A DNA stretch of 22,830 nucleotides from IMG/VR virus record IMGVR_UViG_3300042892_002359, positions 1 through 22,830 of that record, one strand, 5' to 3'. This document shows positions 7,030 through 22,305 of the stretch, piece after piece; within the stretch, counting starts at the first letter, position 1, and every line of letters starts with the position of its first letter. The position numbers and the translations under genes are program-made. The notes below the pieces were generated by a model, which worked only from the letters and a program-made list of their open reading frames with translations, had not been told where the DNA came from and made no database searches. The DNA is from a virus.

Positions 7030-8430
7030 ATGCAACAATTTTTTTACGATGCGCAAATCCGACGTTTCCTACTACAGTTTACCCGGATCATCAGCAACTT
7101 TCAAATTGAATATGGCAACGAAACAGATGGCGTGAACAATGCTACCTTGATACGTGTGCCTGTTCGTTATGGAGATGCCAGTCGCAACGCACAAGTTATT
7201 ATTCAAGAGAACAGTCGTAACTCAATGCCAGCGTCGCCGCTGATGACATTCTATGTGTCAAGCCTGGATTACGATCGTCCCAGAATGCAAGAGCCTTATC
7301 ATGTGAGCAAGGTCAATGTACGCCAACGCACTTACGACACTGCCACTGAGTCATATGAAACCACACAAGGCAATGCCTTTACCATAGAACGACTCATGCC
7401 TGTGCCTTACAAGTTGGGTATTACACTGGATATTTGGACCTCAAACACCAATCAAAAAATGCAGTTGTTGGAACAACTGCTGACCTTGTTCAACCCCAGT
7501 CTTGAAGTACAAAGCACAGACAACTTTATTGACTGGACCAGTTTGAGCACAGTTGATCTAGAGGCGGTGACCTGGACTTCAAGAACTGTGCCAATTGGCA
7601 CTGAGAATCCCATTGACATGGCCACTATCAAATTCTCATTACCAATTTATATTTCGGCTCCGGCCAAGGTCAAGAAACTGGGCGTGGTTGAACGCATTAT
7701 CATGAGCATGTATGACGCTCAAGGTGATTTGAGTAATGCTGTCACAGACAATGATCTGTTGTTGGGCACCAGAGTTTTAATTACTCCAGGCAATTATGAA
7801 TTGGTAGTGATTGGCAATCAATTGCAGTGTTTACAGCCACGAACTATTGTACCAAATGGCAGCAACAATGACCTTGATCCTGCGTCGATTGTGTCGGGTA
7901 GTAGCCTGCTTTGGCCAGCTGTGATTGGCATGTATGGCACATTACGTCCGGGCATTAGTCAAATTCGTCTGGAACAACAAGATGGATCATTTGTTGTTGG
8001 TACAATTGTGATCAATCCCAACGATGATAGATTTGTATTGTTTGATGTTGATCCCGACACTGTGCCACAAAATACCTTGGATCCCATTGATGCTGTGATC
8101 AACCCCTTGGCCAGTGGTCCTGCCGATGGGCTAGATTCAGCCATAGAAGGTCAACGCTATCTATTGACTGAGGCCACTGGTTCACAAAATAATGTTGGAC
8201 CAGCGTCGGCCTGGGTTGGTGCCAACGGTAGACCCTTGATTGCAGAAGCCAATGACATTATTGAATACACCAATAGTTACTGGCGAGTGGTTTTTAGAGC
8301 CAGTGGACAAGCCGCTGGTCAGTATGTGACAAATATCACTACCAGTATTCAATATGAATGGGATGGTGAAGCCTGGGTCAAGAGTTATCAAGGGGTGTAT
8401 GTTGGAGGCACATGGAGTCTAGTGCTTTGA
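7030..8430 (+). CDS. 15: T4 gp15-like tail completion protein (466 aa, C-terminally extended)
   Basis: The N-terminal ~230 residues match T4 gp15, which caps the tail tube and sheath and docks to the neck. FFYDAQIRRFLLQFTRIISN corresponds to FFYNSSFRRYATLMGDLFSN-like sequence in T4. Matching blocks follow: ATLIRVPVRYGD, PYKLGITLDIWTSNTNQKMQ and LEQLLTLFNPSLEV. T4 gp15 has 272 residues, and here about 220 extra residues follow KVKKLGVVERIIMSMYDAQG. The extension contains beta-rich sequence and, near the end, EGQRYLLTEATG...AWVG...YWRVVFRASG and YEWDGEAWVKSYQG, which resembles DUF2793-type phage domains (tentative). The ATG lies 3 bp after the gp14 stop and the end overlaps the Nudix gene by 19 bp. 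Confidence 0.83.
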   Translation: MQQFFYDAQIRRFLLQFTRIISNFQIEYGNETDGVNNATLIRVPVRYGDASRNAQVIIQENSRNSMPASPLMTFYVSSLDYDRPRMQEPYHVSKVNVRQRTYDTATESYETTQGNAFTIERLMPVPYKLGITLDIWTSNTNQKMQLLEQLLTLFNPSLEVQSTDNFIDWTSLSTVDLEAVTWTSRTVPIGTENPIDMATIKFSLPIYISAPAKVKKLGVVERIIMSMYDAQGDLSNAVTDNDLLLGTRVLITPGNYELVVIGNQLQCLQPRTIVPNGSNNDLDPASIVSGSSLLWPAVIGMYGTLRPGISQIRLEQQDGSFVVGTIVINPNDDRFVLFDVDPDTVPQNTLDPIDAVINPLASGPADGLDSAIEGQRYLLTEATGSQNNVGPASAWVGANGRPLIAEANDIIEYTNSYWRVVFRASGQAAGQYVTNITTSIQYEWDGEAWVKSYQGVYVGGTWSLVL

Positions 8431-8852
8431 AGGCAGTTGGTGTGTGGTTCCGCAGCCGGGACACCAAACGCTATCTATATCTCTTGAGAAACGATGCCAA
8501 ACATCCAGGATCTTGGGGCCTACCCGGCGGCAAAATTAAAACAGGCGAAACACTGTTGGGTGGTATGGAACGTGAGTGTATGGAAGAATTGGGATTCTTT
8601 CCCACTTACTTGAGACTGGTACCTCTGGAAAAATTTACTTCAGCAGATTTAGCCTTTGAATATCACACCTGGATTTGTGTTGTGGATACTGAATTCACTC
8701 CCAGACTAAACTACGAACACCTGGGCTACGCCTGGATTGATGCAGGTACCTGGCCTCGACCCATGCATCCTGGATTGTGGAATACCATGAACATTGATGC
8801 AGTGCAACAGAAGATCATGTTGGTTGAGCAGGATTTTTTAAGTAGAAATTAA
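8412..8852 (+). CDS. Nudix hydrolase (146 aa)
   Basis: Nudix enzymes hydrolyse nucleoside diphosphates linked to another group (X), using metal ions held by the Nudix box. A complete box is present: G40, five residues, E46, seven residues, R54-E55, then E58-E59-x-G61 with a following Phe. WGLPGGKIKTGETLLGG is the core. The length and single-domain layout are usual for the family. KAVGVWFRSRDTKRYLYLLR at the N-terminus is the first strand pair. The start ATG has a perfect GGAGG (8404-8408) three bases upstream, inside the gp15 gene, so the two are coupled. The end overlaps the convergent oxygenase-like gene by 4 bp. The substrate is unknown. Nucleotide-sugar or ADP-ribose type substrates would fit the glycan-related neighbours (inference). 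Confidence 0.92.
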   Translation: MESSALKAVGVWFRSRDTKRYLYLLRNDAKHPGSWGLPGGKIKTGETLLGGMERECMEELGFFPTYLRLVPLEKFTSADLAFEYHTWICVVDTEFTPRLNYEHLGYAWIDAGTWPRPMHPGLWNTMNIDAVQQKIMLVEQDFLSRN

Positions 8853-10069
8853 TCAAAAAAGAATATTTGCCACAGGCGACAATTTTGCATGTTGTAGCCA
8901 AAATACTCATTTGCACTGTGTAGATATCCTGCATTGAAAATCAACAAACGATTGTATACATTGCCCAACACATCCACTGGTTCAAAAATTGTTCTATCAA
9001 GATTTTTTGATCCTGGTCTAAATGCCTGCTTGATACCCGCATGATCTCTATGTCGTATGCCAGTATCTTTCAGTGCAAAAGTTGATGTACCTGTGCTGTA
9101 AGGAGCATCAGGAGTGAGATAAAGCATGCCAGCCCACTTTTGATCGTCACAGTGATGTGCCAAGGGTTCACCTTCTGTACAATACTGAAAGCGGCCGTTC
9201 ATGCCGTGCTCTTCCCAACGAGTGATTTTTTCTCCCATGATGCGTTCAAATTCTTGTTTGAGTCCTGGGAATAGAAATTGTTGTTTGGTGCGACTACCTA
9301 TGTAGTATCGGTCAATACCACCATGGTCGTATTCCTGTTCCAAAGCCAAGGCTCGTATTGCGTCAGGATCTTGATAAAAGTTGTCCACAATCCAAATGCC
9401 TTTGGTGTAGTTTTTGTTGACTTGCTCGCATGATCTATCCACTGTAGAATTGGCCACTATAGGTATCACTGCAGGTTTTTTTGGTCGGATCACTGGCTGA
9501 GACAATTTGACTAATTCTGTGGGCCACCCACAAGTTTTTAAATTGTTGTCAACTGCGGTAAGATGATTTTGATCAAGATCATGATTGAGTTTGAGATCTT
9601 GCATGATCTGTCGAGATTCTTCTCTATGGCCTACCCACCATGCTGCCACACCCTTTTGAAACAACAAAGCATAAGATCCAGGGTACCCCATGTGAGTTGG
9701 CAAAGGTGACAGATCAAGTTGGGCCTGGGCCAGGCCAAAACAGGCCATGGTGTAACTGTTTTGCCAATTTTGTCTTGCTTCGTGATACTTGCTCAATAAA
9801 AAATATGCCTCGGGACGATGCATCATGAGCACAATGGCTTTTTCTAAAATGGTTTTTTCAGTGTCATCCCTTGTGCGTTGCGCGGCAAAACAGATGGCCA
9901 TGCGTAACAAGGCTTCGTACTGTTGGATGTCACTGGTTGATCTTTCAGCAGCCCTGAGATAAAAAGATATAGCGGCACCTGTTTGTCCCATGTCTTCATA
10001 TTCACAGCCCAGAGAAAAATTTGCCCTGGCATCTTCTTGATTGTGGATGTAGTTTATCAACTGTTTCAT
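8849..10069 (-). CDS. TPR-like N-terminus fused to 2OG-Fe(II) oxygenase-like domain (406 aa)
   Basis: Residues about 10-185 are helical repeats of tetratricopeptide type (ANFSLGCEYEDMGQTGAAIS, AYFLLSKYHEARQNWQNSY), probably for protein contact. Residues about 225-406 look like a 2-oxoglutarate/Fe(II) dioxygenase of the DUF6445 kind: GIWIVDNFYQDPDAIRALAL, then H306-x-D308 in LAHHCDDQKWAGMLYLTP, distal H384 in AGYLHSANEYFGY and R398 in CRLWQIFFFD. These supply the two-His-one-carboxylate metal site and an Arg for 2-oxoglutarate. The strand spacing fits a double-stranded beta-helix fold. The ATG overlaps the stop of the preceding three-domain gene (ATGA), implying coupled translation and probably a shared pathway. 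Hydroxylation of a sugar, peptide or small molecule is possible, but the target is unknown. Confidence 0.78.
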   Translation of the reverse strand: MKQLINYIHNQEDARANFSLGCEYEDMGQTGAAISFYLRAAERSTSDIQQYEALLRMAICFAAQRTRDDTEKTILEKAIVLMMHRPEAYFLLSKYHEARQNWQNSYTMACFGLAQAQLDLSPLPTHMGYPGSYALLFQKGVAAWWVGHREESRQIMQDLKLNHDLDQNHLTAVDNNLKTCGWPTELVKLSQPVIRPKKPAVIPIVANSTVDRSCEQVNKNYTKGIWIVDNFYQDPDAIRALALEQEYDHGGIDRYYIGSRTKQQFLFPGLKQEFERIMGEKITRWEEHGMNGRFQYCTEGEPLAHHCDDQKWAGMLYLTPDAPYSTGTSTFALKDTGIRHRDHAGIKQAFRPGSKNLDRTIFEPVDVLGNVYNRLLIFNAGYLHSANEYFGYNMQNCRLWQIFFFD

Positions 10070-12681
10070 GGGTAAAATTTCACAGGTTGCGGTGCAGGAT
10101 GTGCACCATTTTCACAACGAGTACAAATGTCATAGCATGTTTGTGCTTGTGGTATCACTTGCTCATATGTTTGTGTTTTGAGGTTGCCAATGATGTTGTT
10201 CAGGCCATAGTCCATGCAACACAGACTCACATCGCCATTGGGCAACAACACATTGTGGTAGAGATGTTCTACACAGCCACACGTGCGAACACCATCTGTG
10301 TGGATTTTTTCTTGCCAACTGCTGGCCAATGAGGCCAATTCTGGTTTGAGCACTGCTTCTCTGCTGAGGTTGCCGGCTCTGCCCCACATGATGGGTTTGG
10401 GTGCCCAGTCAAACAAGTGACGCACACTGTCATGCACTTGGTGTCCCATGTTCATCACATAAAAATTCTGTATTCTATCTCTATTTTGGCTCAGCCACTC
10501 CATGCTTCGGATAAATCCTGGAGTTATAGGGTGTCTGGCCAATAGTTCACTGTCTGGCAAGTGCAGTGTGAATCCGCCGTTGGGGCCTCCAGCAAAAGGC
10601 ACATGTGCAATGCGTTCAAGATCTGCAACGCTCAATCCAACCCCTGTGGTAAACACACTCACAGGATGTCCACGATCATGTGCCAACAGCAACATGTCGG
10701 TGCAGTTCTTGTTCATCCAAGGTTCTATAAAACCTGAGAAAGTTATGCGCACTTCAGGTGGCACTGTATCAATCATGGTAGCAAAACTGTCAACCGTCAT
10801 GATTCTTTCGCCTTGATAGGCCTGTTCCAACACACGTTGTGGACAAAACACACAGTCTACTACACAACCTTTTTCTGGCACAATGGTAGTTATTTCAAGA
10901 GTAGGCCAAGGGAATGTGTTAATTTTGGTTTTTTGCTCCAATGGCACACGATTGTCAATGTAGATGGTTATGGCCATGTAGTGTTCAATGAACCAGTCGC
11001 TCCAGAGATCATGTTTGATATCCACATTGTCCATGCTGAATATTCTGTGACTCACCATGTTGGCCAAGTAGAGATCACGAAATTTTCTAAATTTTGCCTT
11101 GAGTTCAGGTGTGTTGAGATGAAACTCACCTGTGATTTTTTTCACGCTGCGTTGAATCCACTCAAAGTTCTTTTCATTGAATATGTCGTACTCGCCACCT
11201 TCACAATCGGTTTTCAAGAAATCAATCTGTTGTATTTTGTGTTCACGGATCAAGGTATCAAATGCAATGGTTTCCATTATTGAGCCATCCGTGCCGTCGG
11301 TTATGGCCTGTTTGGTTTCATCGTACAGACCGGCCACATAGTTTGTGCCATCCTGGGCACCCAGGGCCTTGTTTAACACCACAAAAGGTACGCCGGTGGC
11401 GGCTAAATTTTTCTCTAGAGTTTGATAAAATTCCAATTCGGGCTCAAGACAGATCAACTGTTTTGGTTTTTTATGTGCCACACTCCAGGAGAATGGACCC
11501 ACACTCGCTCCAACGTCAAGCACTGTGTCTCCAGGCTCAACTTCAAAAAACTTTTCGTATACCTTGTCCACAAATACTTCTTTGCTGACTGTGTTGAAAA
11601 ACCAAGTGTTGCGAGCCATCTTGCCCCAGTCAAAGTTTTTGGCTGTGTCATTGATATCAGAAAACCAAGGTGTGTGTGAGGGCCATACAATTTGATCCAC
11701 CAGGTGTCGGGGCATTTTTAAAATAAATGCTGAATTGTCTTGGAATCCAAAACTCAACATCAAATGATTGTCATGCCAGGCGGCACCACAACAGAACTCA
11801 ATGTCTGCTCCCATAAAACTAAAGGGATCGGTATATCTTACCATGTTCCAATCCTGATCCCAAACCACCAAGCGGTGTCTATACACAGCGTCTTTTTCAC
11901 CAGCTGGGGATTTGAACAAGTCCACTTCGTGTGTGCAGGCCAGGTAGTAGTCGCCATAGGGTATCACGTGACTGCTGCCTCTAAAGGCCGGCACATTTGC
12001 CACGCTTTTGTTTTGGTCCAATGCCACAGTCACACATGTGTTGGATACCTCATCATATTGCACAACTTCAGTGGGATTGCTCCATTTTATCCATTGACCC
12101 GCATGATCCAATATGGGCATCCAGTTTTTCTCACAGTAGGTGTCGTCGAGCCCAGGTGCTGGCACACGAGTCCTTGCAATTTCTGTCACTGCATGATCGG
12201 TCACCTCCAGCTCACTCAGTTCCATACGACCTTGGCCGTTGGTTGTGGTATCTCTTCGCACACCACTGATGTATAGGCGTTGGTTCCAACGAAACAGTCT
12301 GGCATCTTCAAGTCCCACAAATGTCCAAAGAGGTTCTTGATCAAATCGGGAGGTGTCGATCTTTTGACAGGTTTTGATTGACAAGTCTGCATTCAAGGTC
12401 AACAGATAATTCCAGGTGCGCAGATGCGGATCGTTTTCGGGGTGCAGGTACTGCAAGGGTCCAAATCTGTGCTGGAATCGTTTGTTTTCAGAATGATACA
12501 AGGTGTAATTCACATGTCGTAAAATACACAAAATTTCATTGCCGTCAACATACACAGACGGATTCATAAGGCCGGTGCCATTGGTATCTTTGGCCGGAAT
12601 AATCAGCGGATGTATGCTTCCGCCAGCATCAAGTGTGGATTTAACCAGCCCTTGAGTAGATATTTGAGTGGATATTGTCAT
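10066..12681 (-). CDS. Three-domain fusion: beta-propeller (GH130-like), FkbM methyltransferase, radical SAM/SPASM-like
   Basis: Residues about 20-350 form a glycosidase-type five-bladed propeller, with LWTFVGLEDARLFRWNQRLY, FRGSSHVIPYGDYYLACTHE and IEFCCGAAWHDNHLMLSFGF as blade motifs. Residues about 355-580 form an FkbM methyltransferase, with SAM motif GDTVLDVGASVGPFS near residue 386 and the signature IDFLKTDCEGGEYDIF near 492. Residues about 590-871 form a radical SAM domain with C606-VVD-C610-VF-C613, and a C-terminal Cys-rich region (CGCVEHLYHN, DVSLCCMDYG, CYDICTRCENG) like SPASM/twitch auxiliary cluster domains. All three domains lie in one uninterrupted 871-codon frame. The ATG at 12681 has no strong Shine-Dalgarno sequence, and a palindrome lies just upstream. 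Methylation plus radical chemistry on a glycan or peptide is the likely job. The substrate is not visible. Confidence 0.85.
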   Translation of the reverse strand: MTISTQISTQGLVKSTLDAGGSIHPLIIPAKDTNGTGLMNPSVYVDGNEILCILRHVNYTLYHSENKRFQHRFGPLQYLHPENDPHLRTWNYLLTLNADLSIKTCQKIDTSRFDQEPLWTFVGLEDARLFRWNQRLYISGVRRDTTTNGQGRMELSELEVTDHAVTEIARTRVPAPGLDDTYCEKNWMPILDHAGQWIKWSNPTEVVQYDEVSNTCVTVALDQNKSVANVPAFRGSSHVIPYGDYYLACTHEVDLFKSPAGEKDAVYRHRLVVWDQDWNMVRYTDPFSFMGADIEFCCGAAWHDNHLMLSFGFQDNSAFILKMPRHLVDQIVWPSHTPWFSDINDTAKNFDWGKMARNTWFFNTVSKEVFVDKVYEKFFEVEPGDTVLDVGASVGPFSWSVAHKKPKQLICLEPELEFYQTLEKNLAATGVPFVVLNKALGAQDGTNYVAGLYDETKQAITDGTDGSIMETIAFDTLIREHKIQQIDFLKTDCEGGEYDIFNEKNFEWIQRSVKKITGEFHLNTPELKAKFRKFRDLYLANMVSHRIFSMDNVDIKHDLWSDWFIEHYMAITIYIDNRVPLEQKTKINTFPWPTLEITTIVPEKGCVVDCVFCPQRVLEQAYQGERIMTVDSFATMIDTVPPEVRITFSGFIEPWMNKNCTDMLLLAHDRGHPVSVFTTGVGLSVADLERIAHVPFAGGPNGGFTLHLPDSELLARHPITPGFIRSMEWLSQNRDRIQNFYVMNMGHQVHDSVRHLFDWAPKPIMWGRAGNLSREAVLKPELASLASSWQEKIHTDGVRTCGCVEHLYHNVLLPNGDVSLCCMDYGLNNIIGNLKTQTYEQVIPQAQTCYDICTRCENGAHPAPQPVKFYP

Positions 12682-14048: not shown

Positions 14049-17000
14049 TCATATGATTGAAAACACACTTGTTGACGGTATAGTCAGGGTCAATCCTGAC
14101 GGTATCACTAGATTACTAAAAGCCACGCCGTTGGTGTTGGCTGACTGTGTGACATTGCCTAGTAGGCTTTTTGGTGTGGTAAGTATGCCTGCATCTACAA
14201 ATCCCGCAGTGGCCAAATTGCCACCCGTAATGGTGCCTGTGACCGAAACAACGCCAGTGACAAATTCTCCTGTGGTTGCAAACACAGCCACATTTGACGT
14301 TCCACCTATGCCAACTGTGACATTGCCGCCTGAACTGACCACAGTGACATTGGAGGTTCCGTTGTTGATATTGCTGGACGATGTGGAAACTCCAGTCAGT
14401 TGTGATCCGTTACCAAAATAGTAGTTGCCAGAGACATTTCCTGTGACACTTAGACGTGTGGCAATGTTGACATTGCCCGTGCCATTTGGAGTCAACACAA
14501 TATTGGCATTGGCACCAGATGTTTGAATATCTAACTGAGCTGAATCAACAATGGCACCCGACAATATTAGGTTGCCACCTGTGATATTACCAGTGGTAAC
14601 TGTCAGACTTGAGCCAGTAATGCCAGCACCTGTCACCGCGCCTGACACAGATATACTCGAACCTGTCATCACGCCACCCACAACTGATGCACCTGTTACT
14701 ATACCGGTTACTGATGCGGATGAGCCAGTGATTACGCCACCTACTACTGATGCGGCTGTGACTCGTCCAGTTACACTCAAATTGGCGCCAGTGTTGACAT
14801 TACCGGTGCCATTTGGAGTCAACACAATATTGGCATTGGCACCAGATGTTTGAATATCTAACTGAGCTGAATCAACAATGGCACCCGACAATATTAGGTT
14901 GCCACCTGTGATATTACCAGTGGTAACTGTCAGACTTGAGCCGGTAATTGCTCCACCTGTTATAGCGCCAGTGGCTGAAATTAATCCAGCTGTGCGTAAA
15001 TTACCAGCTTGAACGTTTGCAGTAGCACTAAGCGTAGTTCCAGAAATTACGTTTGCGCCTGAAATATTACCGCCAGATCCTGAAGTAATAATATTACCGC
15101 CAGTGATGTTACCAGTGGCACTTACTACCCCGCCTGTGTTGATGTTACCACCTGTGATGTTACCTGATACAGATACCGTAGTACCTGTGTGTGTGGTAGC
15201 ATTGACATTGGCTCCGCCCAAAACATTGCCACCTGTGATGTTACCTGACAATGACAATGCACCTGTAGCAGCATTAAATGTAAATTTTGTGGTTGTTACA
15301 TTGGCAACTTGATTACTGCCGTTAGCACCTACCATGACTGGATACAAAGTTGTAGTAGATGTATTGTCTGTGGCAAGAATGATATTACTAGGTCCTGCAA
15401 TACCTTGTGTGCCTTGAATGCCTTGTGCTCCAGTTGTGCCCTGTGTGCCAGTGGCGCCCTGTGTGCCAGTTGCGCCTTGTGCCCCTGTCGCTCCTTGTGT
15501 ACCAGTTGCCCCTTGAGTACCGGTTGTCCCTTGTGCGCCAGTTACCCCTTGTATGCCTTGAGTGCCTTGAGTACCGGTTGTCCCTTGTGCGCCAGTTACC
15601 CCTTGTATGCCTTGAGTGCCTTGAGCGCCGGTTGCGCCCTGTGTGCCGGTAGCACCTTGAACGCCTTGTGTGCCTTGGGTGCCAGTTGCGCCTTGAGCAC
15701 CTGTAGCACCTTGAGCGCCTGTCACTCCTTGAATACCTTGTGTTCCTTGAGCACCAGTTGTGCCTTGAGCACCTGTCAATCCCTGAATGCCTTGAGTGCC
15801 TTGGGTGCCGGTAGCACCTTGAGCGCCGGTTGTGCCTTGAGCACCTGTAGCACCTTGAGCGCCGGTTGCGCCCTGTGTACCACGATCGCCAGTTCTGGAA
15901 AAATCTGTAGCAAGATCGGCAGCATTGGTAGGTAGAGAACCTGACACATAAGTTACAGTGATCTTGTAATAACCAACGGCTGAAGTTACCGCGGTAACAT
16001 TCCAGACATTTACTGTGGTTCCAGAAGAGGATCCTGAGGTAATATATAGATAGCCTTCGCTGGTAGTATTGGTTGAATCATCCCAGGTGTCATACCAGCC
16101 AGTTTGAGTATTAGATAAGGAATCTGTATTGTCAATAAAGATTTGTGTTACTGAGCCTATGGTAGCATTATTATATCTAATTACACCTGTGCCAGGATCA
16201 CTGTCAGTTATGGTTGTACTAAATGTATAAGGCACACCACCTCTATTGCCAGTTGTTCCTGTAGTACCTTGTGTGCCAGTTGTGCCTTGAGCACCGGTTG
16301 CGCCTTGAGCACCGGTCACTCCTTGAATGCCTTGAGTGCCTTGGGTGCCGGTAGCACCTTGAGCGCCGGTTGTGCCTTGAGCACCTGTAGCACCTTGTGT
16401 GCCAGTTGCGCCTTGGGTACCGGTGGTGCCCTGTGTGCCAGTAGTACCTTGGGTGCCGGTTGTGCCTTGAGCACCTGTAGCACCTTGAGCGCCTGTCACT
16501 CCTTGAATACCCTGTGTGCCTTGAGCGCCGGTTGTGCCTTGAGCACCTGTAGCACCTTGAGCGCCAGTTACTCCTTGAATGCCTTGTACCCCTTGAGCAC
16601 CAGTTGCACCTTGAGCGCCAGTTACTCCTTGAATGCCTTGTATTCCTTGTGAGCCTGTCACTCCTTGAATACCCTGTGTGCCTTGGGTGCCGGTTGTGCC
16701 TTGGGTGCCGGTTGTGCCCTGAGTACCAGTCACACCCTGAATGCCTTGAATGCCTTGGGCGCCGGTTGTGCCTTGAGCACCAGTAACACCTGAAACTAAT
16801 GCTAGAGATATTGCTAAATTATTAGCAAATCCAGTAGTACCTGTACCACCAGATGAGGACAAACTGGCTGGTATTTCAGTAAACGTAGGGTTTTGTGTAA
16901 TTGATGATGTGATGGTCCAGATTTGGTAATTGTCGCTATTGCCCGAGTCTTGAATAATAAAGGTTTCAGTGGTCTGCAAAGTGGCCAAGAAAATGTCAAT

Positions 17001-20000
17001 ATCAACACCTGCTGTGGTCAAGTGGCTTACATTGACCTGTGTGGCTGATGTTTGTGTGGCATTGTTCCAGATCAAGAAACCACTGCCTGGATCTCCCGAT
17101 GTCACACCAGTTTTGGCTTGGTATGCAAAGAAACTGCTAGATGATCCTGTAGTACCTTGAGTTCCTGTAGTGCCTTGAGCACCGGTTACTCCTTGAATGC
17201 CTTGAGCACCAGTTATACCTTGGATACCTTGGGTACCAGTAGTGCCTTGAACGCCTTGAACGCCTTGGGTACCAGTAGTGCCTTGGGTACCAGTAGTGCC
17301 TTGTGTACCAGTTGCGCCCTGTGTGCCGGTTACTCCTTGAATACCCTGTGTGCCTTGAGTGCCGGTCGTGCCTTGAGTGCCGGTTGTGCCTTGAGTGCCG
17401 GTTGTGCCTTGAGCACCTGTCACTCCTTGAATGCCTTGGGTGCCTTGAGTGCCGGTTGTGCCTTGTGTGCCGGTTGTGCCCTGTGTACCTGTAGTGCCCT
17501 GTGTACCTATCTCACCTTGTGTGCCGGTTGTGCCTTGAGCACCGGTGGTGCCCTGTGTGCCAGTAGTACCTTGTGTGCCAGTTGCGCCTTGGGTACCGGT
17601 GGTGCCCTGTGTGCCAGTAGTACCTTGGGTGCCGGTTGTGCCTTGTGCGCCAGTGTCTCCTTGGGTGCCGGTTATACCTTGTATGCCTTGGGTGCCCTGT
17701 GTACCTGTAACTCCTTGAACGCCTTGGGTGCCCTGTGTACCAGTTTCACCTTGTGCGCCAGTGTCTCCTTGGGTGCCGGTTATACCTTGTATGCCTTGGG
17801 TGCCCTGTGTACCTGTAACTCCTTGAACGCCTTGGGTGCCCTGTGTGCCGGTTGTGCCCTGTGTACCTATCTCACCTTGGGTACCTTGGGTGCCGGTTAT
17901 ACCTTGAACTCCTTGTGCTCCAGTTATGCCCTGGGCACCTGTCACTCCTTGAATGCCTTGGGTACCTTGAGTGCCGGTTGTGCCCTGTGTGCCAGTTGCA
18001 CCTTGTGTGCCGGTTGTGCCCTGTGTGCCGGTTGTGCCCTGTGTACCAACACCTCCTTGCACTCCTTGCACTCCTTGAGCGCCTGTCTCACCTTGAGCTC
18101 CTGTCACTCCTTGAATGCCTTGAACGCCTTGAACGCCTTGTGTTCCAGTGTTACCTTGAATACCTTGTACTCCTTGAGCACCTGTCTCACCTTGAACGCC
18201 TTGAATGCCTTGTGCACCTGTAGTACCCTGTGTACCTGTCTCGCCTTGCGTACCTGTCTCACCTTGAATGCCTTGGGTGCCCTGTGTACCTGTAGTGCCC
18301 TGAGCACCAGTCACTCCTTGAACGCCTTGAGTACCAGTAGTACCTTGAGCACCAGTAGTGCCTTGAGTGCCGGTTGTGCCCTGTGTACCAGTTTCACCTT
18401 GGGTGCCAGTTTCACCTTGGGTGCCGGTTATGCCTTGAACGCCTTGAGTACCAGTAGTACCTTGAGCACCAGTAGTACCTTGAGTGCCGGTTGTGCCCTG
18501 TGTACCAGTTTCACCTTGGGTGCCAGTTTCACCTTGGGTGCCGGTTATGCCTTGAACGCCTTGAGTACCAGTAGTACCTTGGGTGCCGGTTATACCTTGA
18601 ACGCCTTGAACGCCTTGTATGCCTTGAGCACCAGTAGTACCTTGAGCACCAGTGATGCCTTGAACACCAGTGATGCCTTGTATGCCTTGAGCACCAGTAG
18701 TACCTTGAGCACCTAGCGTTCCGCCTAAATTCACAGTCCAACTTGAGTAAGTACCTGATCCTGTCACAGTCACAACATTAACCACTAATGCTCCTGTGCC
18801 TGTATTGTACGAAGTCACAGTACCTTCCATTACGTTGGAGGCATCAAAGGCAATAATTGCTGTTTGTCCGGGAGTATAGTTTAATCCTGTGCCAATTGTG
18901 AGTGTTTTTACTGCAACACTTATTGTCAAACTAGTGGCACTGGTTGTTTCGTATCTATCGCCTAACCCTTGTACACCTTGAGTGCCTTGTGTACCCTGGA
19001 CACCTTGAACGCCTTGTGTGCCTTGAGCACCAGTTGTGCCTTGTACGCCTTGTATGCCTTGAGCACCTTGAGCACCAGTTTCGCCCTGAACACCTTGTGT
19101 GCCTTGAACACCTTGTGTACCTGTTTCACCTTGAACTCCTTGTACACCTTGAGCACCAGTTTCGCCCTGAACACCTTGTGTGCCTTGAACACCTTGTGTA
19201 CCTGTTTCACCTTGAACTCCTTGTACACCTTGAACGCCAGTTATACCTTGTGTACCTTGAGTGCCAGTTATACCTTGTGTGCCTTGAACACCTTGTGTAC
19301 CTGTCTCACCTTGAACGCCTTGAACGCCTTGTGTGCCTTGAGCACCTGTTGTGCCCTGAACGCCTTGTATGCCTTGAGATCCAGTAGCACCTTGGGTGCC
19401 AGTGACTCCCTGAATACCCTGAACGCCTTGAACACCAGTGATGCCCTGTATACCTTGAGTGCCGGTTGTGCCCTGTGTACCAGTTATGCCTTGGACTCCT
19501 TGGGTACCAGTTGTGCCTTGGGTACCAGTTGTGCCTTGAGCACCTGTTATGCCCTGAACACCTTGAGCCCCTGTTACCCCTTGAATGCCTTGAACGCCTT
19601 GTGTGCCTTGAGCACCTGTTACCCCTGAAACCAAGGCCAATGACACAGCCAAATTATTGGCAAAACCAGTAGAGCCTGTGCCGCCAGATGTGGACAAACT
19701 GGCTGGAATTTGAGTAAATGTCGACCCAAGAGTGATTGGGGCGGTGATGGTCCAGGTTTGATAATTGTCACTATTGCCCGAGTCTTGAATAATAAATGAT
19801 TCAGTAGTCTGCAAAGTGGCCAAGAAAATATCAATGTCCACTCCTGCTGTGGTCAAGTGACTGACATTGATCTGTGTGGCTGATGTTTGTGTGGCATTGT
19901 TCCAGATCAAGAAACCACTACCTGGATCGCCTGATGTCACACCAGTTTTGGCTTGATATGCAAAGAAACTGCTAGATGATCCTGTAGTACCTTGGGTGCC

Positions 20001-21665
20001 TGTGGTGCCTTGAACGCCCTGCACCCCTTGAGCTCCTGTAACTCCTTGAATTCCTTGAATGCCTTGAACGCCTTGAATGCCTTGAACGCCTTGAGCACCT
20101 GTTGTACCTTGAACGCCTTGAGTTCCTGTGGTTCCTTGCGTACCTGTCACTCCTTGAATGCCTTGGGTTCCTGTGGTTCCTTGCGTACCTGTCTCACCTT
20201 GAACGCCTTGGGTGCCTTGTGTACCTGTAGTGCCCTGAGCACCAGTCACTCCTTGAACGCCTTGTGTTCCTTGAACTCCTTGAATTCCAGTAGTACCTTG
20301 GGTGCCCGTAGTACCCTGTGTGCCTGTCACTCCTTGAATGCCTTGAGTGCCTTGAGTACCGGTGGTACCTTGTGTGCCAGTTGCGCCTTGAGCTCCAGTT
20401 ATGCCTTGGGCACCTGTCACTCCTTGGACGCCTTGAGCTCCTGTCACTCCTTGAATGCCTTGTAAACCTTGAATGCCTTGTGTTCCAGTTATTCCTTGAA
20501 CGCCTTGAATGCCTTGAATGCCTTGTGTTCCAGTTATCCCTTGAATGCCTTGAGTACCTGTCTCACCTTGGATGCCGGTGGTACCTTGAACGCCTTGCGT
20601 ACCTGTTTCACCTTGAACTCCTTGTACACCTTGAACTCCTTGAGCACCAGTGTCGCCTTGAATGCCAGTAGTACCTTGAATGCCTTGGGCGCCTTGAGCA
20701 CCTGTTGTGCCTTGTGTTCCGGTGTTGCCTTGTGTTCCTGTCTCACCCTGAATGCCTTGAGCACCAGAACTGAGCGAATTGAAAGTGATTGTGTTTGTGA
20801 CTGTGTTGGCAGTCATAACAATGTTTGCGCCAGGGACAAAGGTTAGAGTCGATGACGTGTTGGCACTCAAATTGGCCGTATTTGCAACCACATTTAAAAA
20901 TGCATTGGTGGTGGCTACCCCAGTCAGTAGTGAACCGTTTCCTTGAAAAAATGCACCAGTTATGTTGCCTGTGGCAGAAACGCTGGACGCTGTGATATTT
21001 CCACCCAGGGTAGATGATCCAGTTCCAGAAAATACTGTTTGCCCACCAACTGAATTGGTAATTGTCAGCGCAGAGGCGTTGGCACTGATTGTACTATTGC
21101 CCAAATTGATGGTGCTGCCACTGAGATATAAATCATTGAATCGTTGTGTAGCAGTGCCAAGATTATAAGCATTGTTTGCAGACGGAACAATATTGGCAGC
21201 TACTGTTACATTTGAAGAATTAAAAACAGCCACATTGGCAGTTCCATTTACACTAACTGTTACAGGAGCATTTGAATCTGCTATCCGCACATTGCTGTTG
21301 GCATTGAGAATTTGACTGCCAGCACTGACTGTGATTCCTGTCAGTGCTGAACCATTGCCTTGATAATAGGCCGCATGCACTGTGTCGTATCTGTAGTCAG
21401 GATTTCCCAGATCAAACACTGCATCTGTGGAAGGACGCACACTACTGTTGGTCACAACATTACCAATTCCGTTGCCCTGCAGAATTAAATTGCCGTTGGT
21501 ACCGTTGATTGAGATGGTGTTGTTGGCTATCGCAACATTGCTGCCAACAGGACCTGCTGTGTAAACTTCTGTGAAATTGTCATTTACCGCAGTAAAGGCT
21601 TCACGCAGGCCCTCACCGGTGCCATCATTGGCAGTGGTGCCCACATCGATTATCTGTTGTGTCAT
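14049..21665 (-). CDS. Giant collagen-like tail fiber protein (2538 aa)
   Basis: The N-terminal ~300 residues begin [20 protein letters not shown] (then [10 protein letters not shown]), an opening I recall from phage fiber proteins, followed by beta-rich repeats with [12 protein letters not shown] and [12 protein letters not shown]. Five collagen-like Gly-X-Y stretches follow, at about residues 301-562, 681-899, 986-1507, 1626-1806 and 1929-2090 (some 450 triplets). They are interrupted by four globular inserts: A1 (563-680), B (900-985), A2 (1508-1625) and C (1807-1928). The C-terminal ~450 residues are repeats of the [10 protein letters not shown] type. The triplets contain no Pro, Lys or Arg, and Y is almost always Gln or Thr. 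This should be a trimeric fiber hundreds of nanometres long if fully helical. A one-mismatch late box and AGAGGA precede ATG 21665. There is no frameshift across 7.6 kb. Confidence 0.9.
14481..14615 (-). repeat. 135-bp perfect direct repeat, copy 1 (fiber C-terminal region)
   Basis: Identical base for base to 14808-14942. It encodes the [20 protein letters not shown]...[14 protein letters not shown] segment of the fiber. The distance between copies is 327 bp, a multiple of three, so the frame is kept. Confidence 0.9.
14808..14942 (-). repeat. 135-bp perfect direct repeat, copy 2 (fiber C-terminal region)
   Basis: Second copy of the segment at 14481-14615, with no difference seen. Complete identity, including synonymous sites, suggests a recent duplication or gene conversion. 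Confidence 0.9.
15511..15618 (-). repeat. 54-bp tandem repeat in collagen region
   Basis: Two adjacent identical 54-bp units (15511-15564 and 15565-15618), equal to six Gly-X-Y triplets each. Confidence 0.8.
16791..17144 (-). repeat. Globular insert A2 (duplicate of A1) within the fiber
   Basis: Encodes a 118-residue non-collagen domain starting [20 protein letters not shown]. It differs from insert A1 at 19626-19979 at about twelve residues, and the DNA is also closely similar. It carries an SDPG/GDPG...NNAT...TQI pattern related to insert C, a domain type I recall from other phage collagen fibers. Confidence 0.85.
17641..17856 (-). repeat. 108-bp tandem repeat in collagen region
   Basis: Two adjacent 108-bp units (from 17641 and 17749), twelve triplets each. 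They are identical over about the first 98 bp and then diverge. They encode the segment with the GDTGAQG triplets. Confidence 0.75.
18316..18549 (-). repeat. 117-bp tandem repeat in collagen region
   Basis: Two adjacent 117-bp units (18316-18432 and 18433-18549), thirteen triplets each, differing at one base that I can see. The beginning of a third copy follows from 18550 for about 30 bp. Confidence 0.82.
19066..19227 (-). repeat. 81-bp perfect tandem repeat in collagen region
   Basis: Two adjacent identical 81-bp units (19066-19146 and 19147-19227), nine triplets each. Confidence 0.85.
19626..19979 (-). repeat. Globular insert A1 within the fiber
   Basis: The partner copy of insert A2, 118 residues, ending [20 protein letters not shown] where the collagen triplets resume. 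Both copies begin after GTTG and end before GVTGAQG, so the duplicated block includes its collagen junctions. Confidence 0.85.
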
Positions 21666-21720: not shown

Positions 21721-22305
21721 CTAAATTTCTTTGGACTCCAAACGCCGTTGAAAGGTCACAATGTCCACATGTGCCAGGTTAGGCACCGCCTGCAGATCAC
21801 GTATTTCAGCAGTGGTTTCTCCAGTCACTCGGAAAAAACTTGTTTTGGAAAAATCCTTGGCAATTTGTTTGATTTGCCGAGTCCAGTTGCCAGTAAATGT
21901 AGGATTGGCCGAACTTTTTTTGTAGAATTCTGTGTCAGCATAACAGTTGTTGAATCTGCCTGTGCGATTCGGGCCCATGTCAAACCCTATCAAATACACA
22001 GCTCTTGCCCCGTCCAGTGCAGCTTGTGCCACTGCCACTGGTCCGGAACTGTATCCAAAATACTGCTGAGTAATACGCAAGGCACCTGCATCTGGCAAAG
22101 GTTTACGAGTATAATGGATATGGCTTCGGCTGTAGCCTTCGTGTTGAATACGTTCGCTTATGGGTGCATCTGTGCTGATCAGCACGTCAGGTTCAAACTC
22201 TCGATAGATAGCGTTACAGCCATACACACGCCCAAGCGTTTTTAGCAAGTTCAAATCAATTTGTCTACGGCTTATGCCGTTACCCAATACAAATGCCGCG
22301 GTCAT
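21721..22305 (-). CDS. DUF115/MAF-like putative sugar-modification protein (194 aa)
   Basis: The N-terminus [20 protein letters not shown], then [20 protein letters not shown], resembles the nucleotide-binding opening of DUF115 / motility-accessory-factor proteins and related small glycosyltransferase-like enzymes (GNGPS..D...N..Y..F.PD....D pattern, recalled). The middle segment [20 protein letters not shown], followed by IGFDM, is a typical Rossmann-type helix and strand, as in the sialyltransferase-like and DUF115 folds. The full length is close to that of the minimal domain. ATG 22305 has GGGAGG seven bases upstream, but that sequence forms the 3' arm of a hairpin. The gene lies between a virion-type protein and the giant fiber, so modification of a virion or host glycan is possible. 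The assignment is tentative. Confidence 0.6.

Follow-up and report, generated by a model that had tools for sequence, protein, structure and literature searches.

Organization of the Fibre Locus

The window, by which we mean the whole 22,830-nucleotide stretch of viral DNA analysed here (IMG/VR record IMGVR_UViG_3300042892_002359), carries a tail-fibre gene followed on the same strand by genes for two smaller proteins and two multidomain candidate enzymes (Table 1). The fibre protein comprises an N-terminal structural module of ~300 residues, five collagen-like runs with inserted domains between them, and a 445-residue C-terminal part built of β-repeats. It is identified as a tail fibre by matches to PHROG families 6320, 5073, 819, and 366 and by an adjoining tail sheath stabilizer gene; its match to Pfam Collagen (PF01391) scores 650 bits against a cut-off of 27.2. 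In run 3, Gly occupies every third residue, unbroken over 176 triplets, and the run carries a recent 117-nt tandem duplication (18316–18581). A plus-strand ORF at 17157–18716 (519 aa) was rejected as a gene, being a mirror of the repeats with no gene-like sign.

Relatives of the insert domain, which is present in two near-identical copies, were found at 68 viral loci, attached to collagens of widely differing composition. Some of these are proline-rich GPT collagens, implying that the proline-free rod occupies the place of an ordinary collagen. In other viral fibres the insert domain bears Gly-X-Y repeats of the GSS/GTS/GYS type.

With respect to the neighbouring genes, that for the 169-aa protein adjoins the fibre gene in many related phages, and the 239-aa LamG-like protein is, from its sequence matches, probably virion- or fibre-associated. 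Comparison of the 194-aa protein with PDB profiles returned mostly GT42 members, at weak E values of 0.007–0.95 (best 0.007–0.018) and mainly over residues 1–36.

Table 1. Features of the fibre locus, in the order of transcription
Feature	Position	Strand	Basis
194-aa protein, weakly GT42 sialyltransferase-like	21721..22305	-	Upstream of fibre; PHROG 1.7e-5
Tail-fibre protein, 2538 aa	14049..21665	-	ORF; Pfam Collagen E=1e-200; PHROG tail fibre families
Gly-X-Y run 1, 88 triplets	19974..20765	-	Exact run scan
Insert domain copy 1, aa 565-680	19626..19973	-	Near-identical to copy 2
Gly-X-Y run 2, 74 triplets	18960..19625	-	Exact run scan
Gly-X-Y run 3, 176 triplets	17139..18722	-	Exact run scan
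Insert domain copy 2, aa 1510-1625	16791..17138	-	Near-identical to copy 1
Gly-X-Y run 4, 62 triplets	16233..16790	-	Exact run scan
Gly-X-Y run 5, 56 triplets	15387..15890	-	Exact run scan
Small fibre-associated protein, 169 aa	13494..14003	-	PHROG matches to ends of larger proteins including tail fibre
LamG-like (concanavalin A-like lectin) protein, 239 aa	12768..13487	-	Pfam Laminin_G_3 E=4.5e-16; PHROG virion structural
871-aa candidate enzyme: GH130/GT108-fold β-propeller (K1, aa 1-~340), FkbM methyltransferase, radical SAM/SPASM	10066..12681	-	Domain and fold matches
K1 domain	11557-12681	-	Five-bladed β-propeller, fold match
406-aa protein: TPR domain (J1), DUF6445 with HxD...H...R pattern of 2OG-Fe(II) oxygenases	8849..10069	-	Domain, motif and fold matches

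Composition and Gln/Thr Order of the Collagen-like Runs

The initial annotation, made from the letters alone, had described some 450 Gly-X-Y triplets; we counted 456, in five runs on the minus strand. Its statement that these contain no Pro, Lys, or Arg is true of the run bodies and, for Lys, throughout, but Pro occurs once (GPS) and Arg twice (GDR and GNR), in each case at a run end. Pro takes 1 of the 912 X/Y positions, so that the Pro/Hyp enrichment usual in collagens is absent, and charge is low, with acidic residues at 3% of X/Y positions. The Y position, reported as nearly always Gln or Thr, is occupied by Gln in 287 triplets, Thr in 157, and other residues in 12 (97% Gln/Thr).

The proposed order, in which a Thr-Y triplet is followed by a Gln-Y triplet while Gln-Y triplets are free to repeat, is evident in the neighbour counts (TQ 153, QT 154, QQ 128, TT 1). 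The single TT pair compares with 53.3 ± 4.8 expected when triplets were shuffled within runs, the minimum in 10,000 shuffles being 36. Successive Thr-Y triplets lie an odd number of triplets apart in 122 of 151 cases (0.81, versus 0.69 ± 0.035 for a null without TT), which is the hexapeptide register G-X-Q-G-X-T. An almost exclusive pairing of acidic or Asn X residues with Thr-Y had also been noted. It is found in the window gene, where E, D, or N is at X in 23/157 GxT but 0/287 GxQ triplets (Fisher, 1.4e-11) and the remaining four such triplets are GEI (twice), GDR, and GNR. As a general rule the pairing was rejected: acid at X, pooled over proline-free loci, amounts to 1.5% with either Y, and one locus (L466) has 35 GEQ triplets.

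Across viral loci picked independently of the order rule, 24 proline-free Gln-rich collagens gave observed/expected ratios of 0.27 for TT and 0.35 for neighbouring non-Gln-Y triplets. The corresponding ratios were 1.10 and 1.03 for 24 proline-containing Gln loci (Mann-Whitney between these two groups, 6e-8), and 1.04 and 1.00 for 51 proline-containing loci low in Gln. Loci L129–L246 were left out of these figures because their search pattern itself contains the alternation. The constrained order is thus borne out beyond the near-absence of TT in the window. In the sequences compared, avoidance of successive non-Gln-Y triplets is restricted to the proline-free Gln-rich class, in which Gln is the common Y residue, with the qualification that all of the collagens come from different phages, which partly confounds lineage with composition. 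The suggestion that Gln stabilizes the helix without proline gains backing from the comparison to the extent that Gln-less pairs are avoided solely when proline is absent.

A Downstream Cassette Linked to Proline-Free Collagens

The N-terminal K1 domain of the 871-aa protein is assigned by fold to the GH130/GT108 superfamily and is a candidate enzyme: matches to GH130 have Z scores of 20–23.5 over 267–283 residues (best, 23.5, for mannoside phosphorylases), and those to the GT108 Leishmania GDP-Man transferases ~17.7–17.8. The Pfam GH130 match is weak (E 0.19), and a K1 profile run against PDB sequences gave no usable match to solved GH130 members. An E125-D126-x-R128 motif is invariant in 12 relatives and may include the counterpart of the known catalytic Asp.

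The ATG of the 406-aa gene overlaps the stop of the 871-aa gene (ATGA). Its TPR part has human OGT as best fold match (Z 17.4), the fold-match rows covering essentially the TPR half alone. In the DUF6445 part, the H and D of HxD and the C-terminal Arg are invariant in 12 sequences, with the distal His present in most; a profile of this part gave no match among PDB sequences. Foldseek places AspH, likewise a TPR plus oxygenase protein, at the top of its matches to the 406-aa protein, but with a TM of 0.28 over both domains. Motif and weak fold matches together make DUF6445 a putative 2OG-Fe(II) oxygenase. Prolyl hydroxylation by this protein was rejected for the window collagen, with its one Pro in all.

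By genomic context, the cassette is linked specifically to proline-free Gln collagens. Where at least 2 kb of downstream sequence is available, it follows 17/38 of these collagens and 0/77 others; for loci fetched by collagen pattern alone the figures are 18/84 (proline-free, Gln-rich) and 0/152 (p=2e-9). Loci fetched by K1 alone have the TPR partner in 79/80 cases and a Gly-X-Y run in 43/80, with 37 of the 43 runs proline-free and Gln-rich and the nearest run upstream of K1 on the same strand in 42/43. A run is present in 13/21 K1 clusters at 65% identity, and in 0/80 control loci of an unrelated tail gene. Nearly all close relatives of the 2OG domain sit in the cassette, making that domain useless as a negative control. 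Hundreds of public viral loci contain the K1 domain; bacterial genomes gave only six matches, which are probably phage contigs in metagenome bins. In the cultured freshwater cyanophage DSL-LC02 (a Synechococcus phage), the same cassette is flanked by a collagen-like gene on one side and a tail-fibre gene on the other. The tie between a GH130/GT108-fold plus TPR cassette and proline-free viral collagens is new here; we did not find the cassette described together with collagen in the open-access literature.

About half of the proline-free collagens with downstream sequence have the cassette, and their composition is the same with or without it, indicating that the cassette is not required for a proline-free helix. 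Moreover, of the 35 K1 loci whose upstream sequence extends for at least 8 kb, 10 lack a collagen and some of these lie in glycan-gene clusters, implying that K1 and TPR can serve other ends.

Discussion

The explanation we favour overall, at a probability of roughly 0.6, combines Gln-Y-stabilized proline-free rods with a downstream cassette that modifies the fibre. The phage would be a large freshwater T4-like or jumbo phage, and the Gly-X-Y stretch the shaft of its long trimeric tail fibre, with five collagen triple-helix rods joined by β-rich domains. With proline nearly absent, Gln-Y would provide stabilization and be needed at minimum in alternate triplets; Thr or any other Y residue would be tolerated only one triplet at a time, with Gln-Y on either side, which yields the G-X-Q-G-X-T register. 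There is a fair probability that the helix is then covalently modified by the enzymes of the downstream cluster, the GH130/GT108-fold domain transferring a glycosyl group, the TPR domain targeting, and the FkbM methyltransferase, radical-SAM, and 2OG-oxygenase domains carrying out tailoring steps. We infer that a triple helix forms, that Gln is physically responsible for the rule, and that the cassette acts on the fibre. We would put at even odds the stronger proposal of a dedicated phage collagen-modification island, in which a GH130/GT108-fold glycosyltransferase, a TPR targeting protein, and interchangeable FkbM, radical-SAM, and 2OG domains act on proline-free Gln/Thr fibres.

The Gln/Thr order might be a mere footprint of growth, an 18-nt G-X-Q-G-X-T unit having been copied and G-X-Q inserted, with constraint absent now. 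Gln (CAR) and Thr (ACN) codons are at least two bases apart, so that Y residues would seldom interconvert, and the X residues Thr, Ala, Val, and Ile are one step apart; tandem repeats of period 18 and related periods run throughout the array, Thr-Y spacing is mostly odd, and longer-range copying leaves a weak signal at lag 6 (z 3.2) and lag 13 (z 3.8). However, silent-codon identity between triplets one or two positions apart is at chance level (z = 0.1 and 0.7), indicating that the copying is old and that recent duplication is not the cause of the order, and of 125 distinct 27-nt contexts around Thr-Y triplets, 123 still continue with Gln-Y. TRF periods of 9, 27, and 45 suggest that the copied units spanned odd multiples of 9 nt, which would be expected to make Thr-Thr joints, and the same avoidance recurs in unrelated proline-free collagens that use a different set of X residues, but not in proline-containing ones. 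We consider a growth footprint improbable on these grounds; at the sequence level, the order in the window shows selection-like maintenance. We give still less credence to a non-collagen fold (e.g. a glycine-rich polyproline-II bundle or β-structure) that the order rule would serve. The near-absence of proline, the few charged residues, and the sharing of the insert domain with GSS/GTS/GYS repeats would suit such a fold, but the strict third-residue Gly of run 3, the strength of the Pfam Collagen match, the attachment of related insert domains to GPT collagens, and the typical presence of Gln and Thr at Y in bacterial and viral collagens (PMC3368898) argue for the triple helix.

The cassette could alternatively act on the host, altering its surface (LPS O-chain, superinfection exclusion), or on a different virion protein, and cluster with the fibre gene via a hypervariable host-recognition region. 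We regard this as unlikely, though of some weight: it is the usual reading of glycosyltransferases adjoining tail fibres (PMC7029224), the fibre gene is preceded by a GT42-like one, and some K1 loci are within glycan-gene clusters with collagen absent. The confinement of the linkage to one chemical class of collagen stands against it, as do the near-constant upstream, same-strand position of the collagen and the near-universal TPR protein, whose best match to the TPR of protein O-GlcNAc transferase suggests a protein substrate. The specific linkage makes modification of the fibre plausible, and the cassette probably glycosylates or otherwise modifies it, with a substrate and chemistry that we infer. 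Sugars specifically on Y-position Thr, as first proposed, are unsupported: Thr-Y falls to just 3–6% in the cassette-linked collagens L471, L451, and L425, and among such collagens Thr at X is no less constant than Thr at Y.

Textbook collagen requires proline and hydroxyproline. The window and its many relatives indicate that virus fibres can bear very long Gly-X-Y rods nearly without proline, and the rule that no two neighbouring triplets may both lack Gln-Y is simple and would be directly useful in recombinant collagen design. In the linked cassette there is a concrete candidate for a pathway by which phages could modify collagen with enzymes of their own; a modification island, if true, would be the prokaryotic-virus counterpart of the animal system of prolyl/lysyl hydroxylases and collagen glycosyltransferases, with different chemistry.

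Known prokaryotic and viral collagen-like proteins (PF01391; Scl1/Scl2, BclA, and the E. coli prophage EPcl) likewise have long unbroken Gly-X-Y runs, a preference for Gln/Thr at Y, and a phage tail-fibre context (PMC3368898, PMC8968730). Published tables give the Scl1/Scl2, BclA, and EPcl group 19–48% Pro at X, and charged residues are often numerous. In contrast, the window collagen has Pro near zero, low charge, and the rule against consecutive non-Gln-Y triplets. In BclA, Pro is used at X and nearly all Y positions carry Thr; both collagens are rich in Thr-Y, which in the window is almost never consecutive. The BclA collagen of Bacillus anthracis/cereus is glycosylated, with the sugars proposed to aid the helix (PMC8968730), and a K1/TPR cassette is not described there. 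OGT and AspH, which act on proteins, resemble the 406-aa protein in having a TPR domain adjoining a modifying domain, although its catalytic half is weakly matched. K1 shares its five-bladed β-propeller with GH130 mannoside phosphorylases and the GT108 Leishmania MPT, but at 8–14% identity, and differs in being fused or paired in phages with TPR, FkbM, radical-SAM, and 2OG domains. Mimivirus encodes a collagen hydroxylase and glycosyltransferases (PMC9546862), and its L230/R699 (lysyl hydroxylase, glucosyltransferases) offer the parallel of a virus with both collagen and modifying enzymes, including a 2OG oxygenase and a glycosyltransferase; there, however, hydroxylysine is modified, whereas the window collagen has no Lys and its neighbouring genes encode a GH130/GT108 propeller, TPR, FkbM, and radical-SAM domains.

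Triplet Order in the Fibre Collagen

We take the source of the window, a 22.8-kb virus fragment, to be a T4-like jumbo phage, presumably of freshwater, to judge from the contig origins. Its tail sheath stabiliser shares 28–35% identity, along most of its length, with large-phage proteins (Atu_ph07, PA5oct, and Sinorhizobium phage Phosso) and is matched at 72–98% identity by many short IMG/VR contigs. A NUDIX hydrolase gene overlaps the stabiliser gene, as it does in the annotations of Pseudomonas jumbo phages (PA5oct group).

Features of the window discussed in the text
Feature	Position	Strand	Evidence or note
Tail sheath stabiliser and overlapping NUDIX hydrolase genes	7030–8852		
406-aa protein	8849–10069	minus	TPR domain and DUF6445 domain
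871-aa enzyme	10066–12681	minus	K1 at N terminus
Tail-fibre protein, 2538 aa	14049–21665	minus	PHROG; Pfam Collagen E=1e-200
Gly-X-Y run, 88 triplets	19974–20765	minus	
Gly-X-Y run, 74 triplets	18960–19625	minus	
Gly-X-Y run, 176 triplets	17139–18722	minus	
Duplicated 117-nt unit	18316–18581		within the 176-triplet run
Gly-X-Y run, 62 triplets	16233–16790	minus	
Gly-X-Y run, 56 triplets	15387–15890	minus	
GT42-like gene, 194 aa	21721–22305		just 5′ of the fibre gene

At the collagen rise of 0.286 nm per residue, the five runs would form rods of ~75, 64, 151, 53, and 48 nm, in the order tabulated. The initial annotation had read a constrained order of triplets with Thr or Gln at Y (Thr-Y, Gln-Y), and the constraint proved stronger than claimed: Thr-Y follows Thr-Y once, versus 53.3 ± 4.8 times (minimum 36) in 10,000 shuffles. 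The number of triplets between Thr-Y triplets is odd in 122/151 cases (0.81), versus 0.686 ± 0.035 under a null that already excludes Thr-Thr neighbours; this spacing is a six-residue register. Y is indeed nearly always Gln (287) or Thr (157), with 12 other residues. The reported absence of Pro, Lys, and Arg from X and Y is exact for Lys (0) but not strictly so for Pro (1) or Arg (2, at run ends).

The runs contain tandem repeats of 18, 27, 36, 45, and 54 nt and longer, and the 117-nt unit is tandemly duplicated with 99% identity, the sole clearly recent duplication of such size in the collagen runs. Silent-codon agreement is 0.440 between triplets one apart and 0.475 between triplets two apart, versus 0.439 and 0.464, respectively, when codons are dealt at random. 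Because neighbouring silent codons are at chance level, and Gln-Y comes next after Thr-Y in 123 of 125 distinct nucleotide contexts, the arrays are old as DNA, with the amino-acid order retained.

The Rule across Viral Collagens

The order was compared among loci from three fetches, none picked for the rule: by Gly-X-Y pattern (fixing just the first two bases of Gly codons), by the fibre insert domain, and by K1, the GH130/GT108-fold domain of the 871-aa enzyme. In proline-free Gln-rich collagens (n = 24), Thr-Thr neighbours occur at 0.27 and successive non-Gln triplets at 0.35 of expectation. The corresponding values are 1.10 and 1.03 in proline-containing collagens with Gln (n = 24), 1.04 and 1.00 in proline-containing low-Gln collagens (n = 51), and 0.93 and 1.01 in proline-free low-Gln collagens (n = 12). 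The rule is best put as follows: without proline and with Gln as stabiliser, pairs of adjacent triplets with no Gln-Y between them are avoided. The pairing of acidic or Asn X with Thr-Y, also annotated initially, holds in the window gene (23 Glu, Asp, or Asn at X with Thr-Y, none with Gln-Y); as a general rule, confinement of acidic X to Thr-Y is ruled out by proline-free loci, where acid at X is 1.5% whichever the Y residue, and by the 35 GEQ triplets of the L466 collagen.

Relatives of the insert domain (fibre residues 565–680 and 1510–1625) occur in 68 viral loci, where they are attached to proline-rich GPT collagens (e.g. L367, Pro at 39% of X/Y), GAT/GVT collagens, or GSS/GTS/GYS repeats. 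The closest, in L327, adjoins a proline-poor Gln/Thr collagen (Thr-Thr 0 versus 25 expected). Since the domain joins both sorts, the proline-free rod takes the place of ordinary collagen in fibres of the same type. Viral fibres of L342–L348, L385–L392, L061, L063, L101, and L128 carry extended Gly-X-Ser repeats (GSS/GTS or GYS/GIS/GFS), and some of these fibres share the insert domain with collagen fibres.

An Enzyme Cassette Downstream of the Fibre

The fibre gene is followed 3′ on the same strand, with short gaps, by genes for a small fibre-associated protein, a LamG-like protein, the 871-aa enzyme (K1, FkbM methyltransferase, and radical SAM/SPASM domains), and the 406-aa protein, whose ATG overlaps the preceding stop. 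The AlphaFold model of the enzyme (mean pLDDT 72.8; K1 mostly 80–94, radical-SAM part poor) matches mannosylglucose phosphorylase (Z 23.5 over 278 residues) and Leishmania GDP-mannose-dependent MPT-2 (Z 17.8) in its K1 part, which places K1 in the GH130/GT108 β-propeller group. The TPR domain of the 406-aa protein best matches the OGT TPR (Z 17.4); its DUF6445 domain has a 2OG-Fe(II) oxygenase pattern, with HxD and Arg invariant and the distal His mostly conserved. Top Foldseek matches of the whole protein are to the TPR-plus-oxygenase AspH, with a TM of just 0.28. K1 and the TPR domain are a near-obligate pair, the latter being found in 79/80 loci fetched by K1 and fused to it in some (L453, L163, L164, L156). 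FkbM (32), radical SAM (35), and 2OG (37) domains are variable partners in differing fusions.

L466–L468 and L470 carry an expanded cassette, in which a second K1 copy is fused to TPR and a 2OG domain accompanies two FkbM genes, with GEQ-rich collagen nearby. DUF6445/2OG relatives occur in cyanophages S-SCSM2R, S-SSM7, and Sf-FS3 (L396, L397, and L399), annotated as “minor coat protein” or “prolyl 4-hydroxylase”; the domain belongs to a K1+TPR cassette in S-SCSM2R and, in the other two, sits in a large island of sugar genes, flanked by glycosyltransferase genes of the fucosyltransferase (GT11) and GT25 types. The 194-aa gene bears a weak resemblance to GT42 sialyltransferases, its best matches among PDB profiles being CstII-like (E 0.007–0.018). 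Its relatives lie 5′ of the fibre in both L293 and L327, close to tail genes in L300, L312, and L313, and close to phytanoyl-CoA-dioxygenase-like genes in Pelagibacter phage HTVC008M.

Linkage to Proline-Free Collagen and Its Limits

Among loci fetched by collagen pattern alone, the cassette accompanies 18/84 proline-free Gln-rich collagens versus 0/152 others (p = 2.3e-9), or 17/38 versus 0/77 where at least 2 kb of downstream DNA is available. Conversely, 43/80 loci fetched by K1 alone contain a Gly-X-Y run (25/35 of those with at least 8 kb upstream), proline-free and Gln-rich in 37 of the 43; the nearest run lies upstream of K1 on the same strand in 42. No run was found in 80 loci of an unrelated tail gene from the same phage group. 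Phage ancestry in these counts is handled by clustering alone: when K1 is clustered at 65% identity, 13 of the 21 clusters show the link. Fetching by the 2OG domain alone gave proline-free Gln-rich collagen in 21 of 27 loci with a run. The K1+TPR pair also occurs in two cultured cyanophages: in DSL-LC02, with a collagen-like gene on one side and a tail fibre on the other, and in S-SCSM2R, several kilobases from a Gln-rich run.

Nevertheless, about half of the proline-free collagens whose downstream sequence is long enough lack the cassette, and collagen composition does not differ between those with and without it, so a proline-free helix does not need it. Some K1 pairs lie in glycan-gene surroundings without collagen. 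Of the candidate residues for modification, Gln-Y occurs in all cassette-linked collagens, whose X-Thr is 11–76%; Thr-Y is nearly absent in some. Two cassette-free loci, L249 and L251, with a tail gene 95–96% identical to that of the window phage, have a fibre end of β-repeats, with no collagen seen there as far as the contigs extend; this fits the cassette-collagen link but proves nothing. Among phages whose tail sheath stabilisers are 95–98% identical, L249 and L251 differ from L250 and L248 in whether they carry the two enzyme genes of the cassette; this presence/absence polymorphism is flanked by the NUDIX gene and the fibre.

Comparison with Known Collagens

The link to the enzymes is more surprising than the collagen itself, and it is testable directly on a cultured phage. 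In the open-access literature we found no description of a ban on consecutive non-Gln triplets, or of a K1+TPR cassette tied to proline-free collagen. The usual interpretation of glycosyltransferases close to phage tail fibres is that they modify host LPS (PMC7029224), and mycobacteriophage capsid and tail proteins are glycosylated, according to work cited in PMC12619734. Mimivirus encodes collagen-modifying enzymes (PMC9546862), and B. anthracis has glycosylated BclA and a prolyl hydroxylase (PMC8968730). Viral and bacterial collagens are known to prefer Gln and Thr at Y, with little Pro there (PMC3368898, PMC8968730); the proline-free fibre collagen is a variation on these already known collagens.
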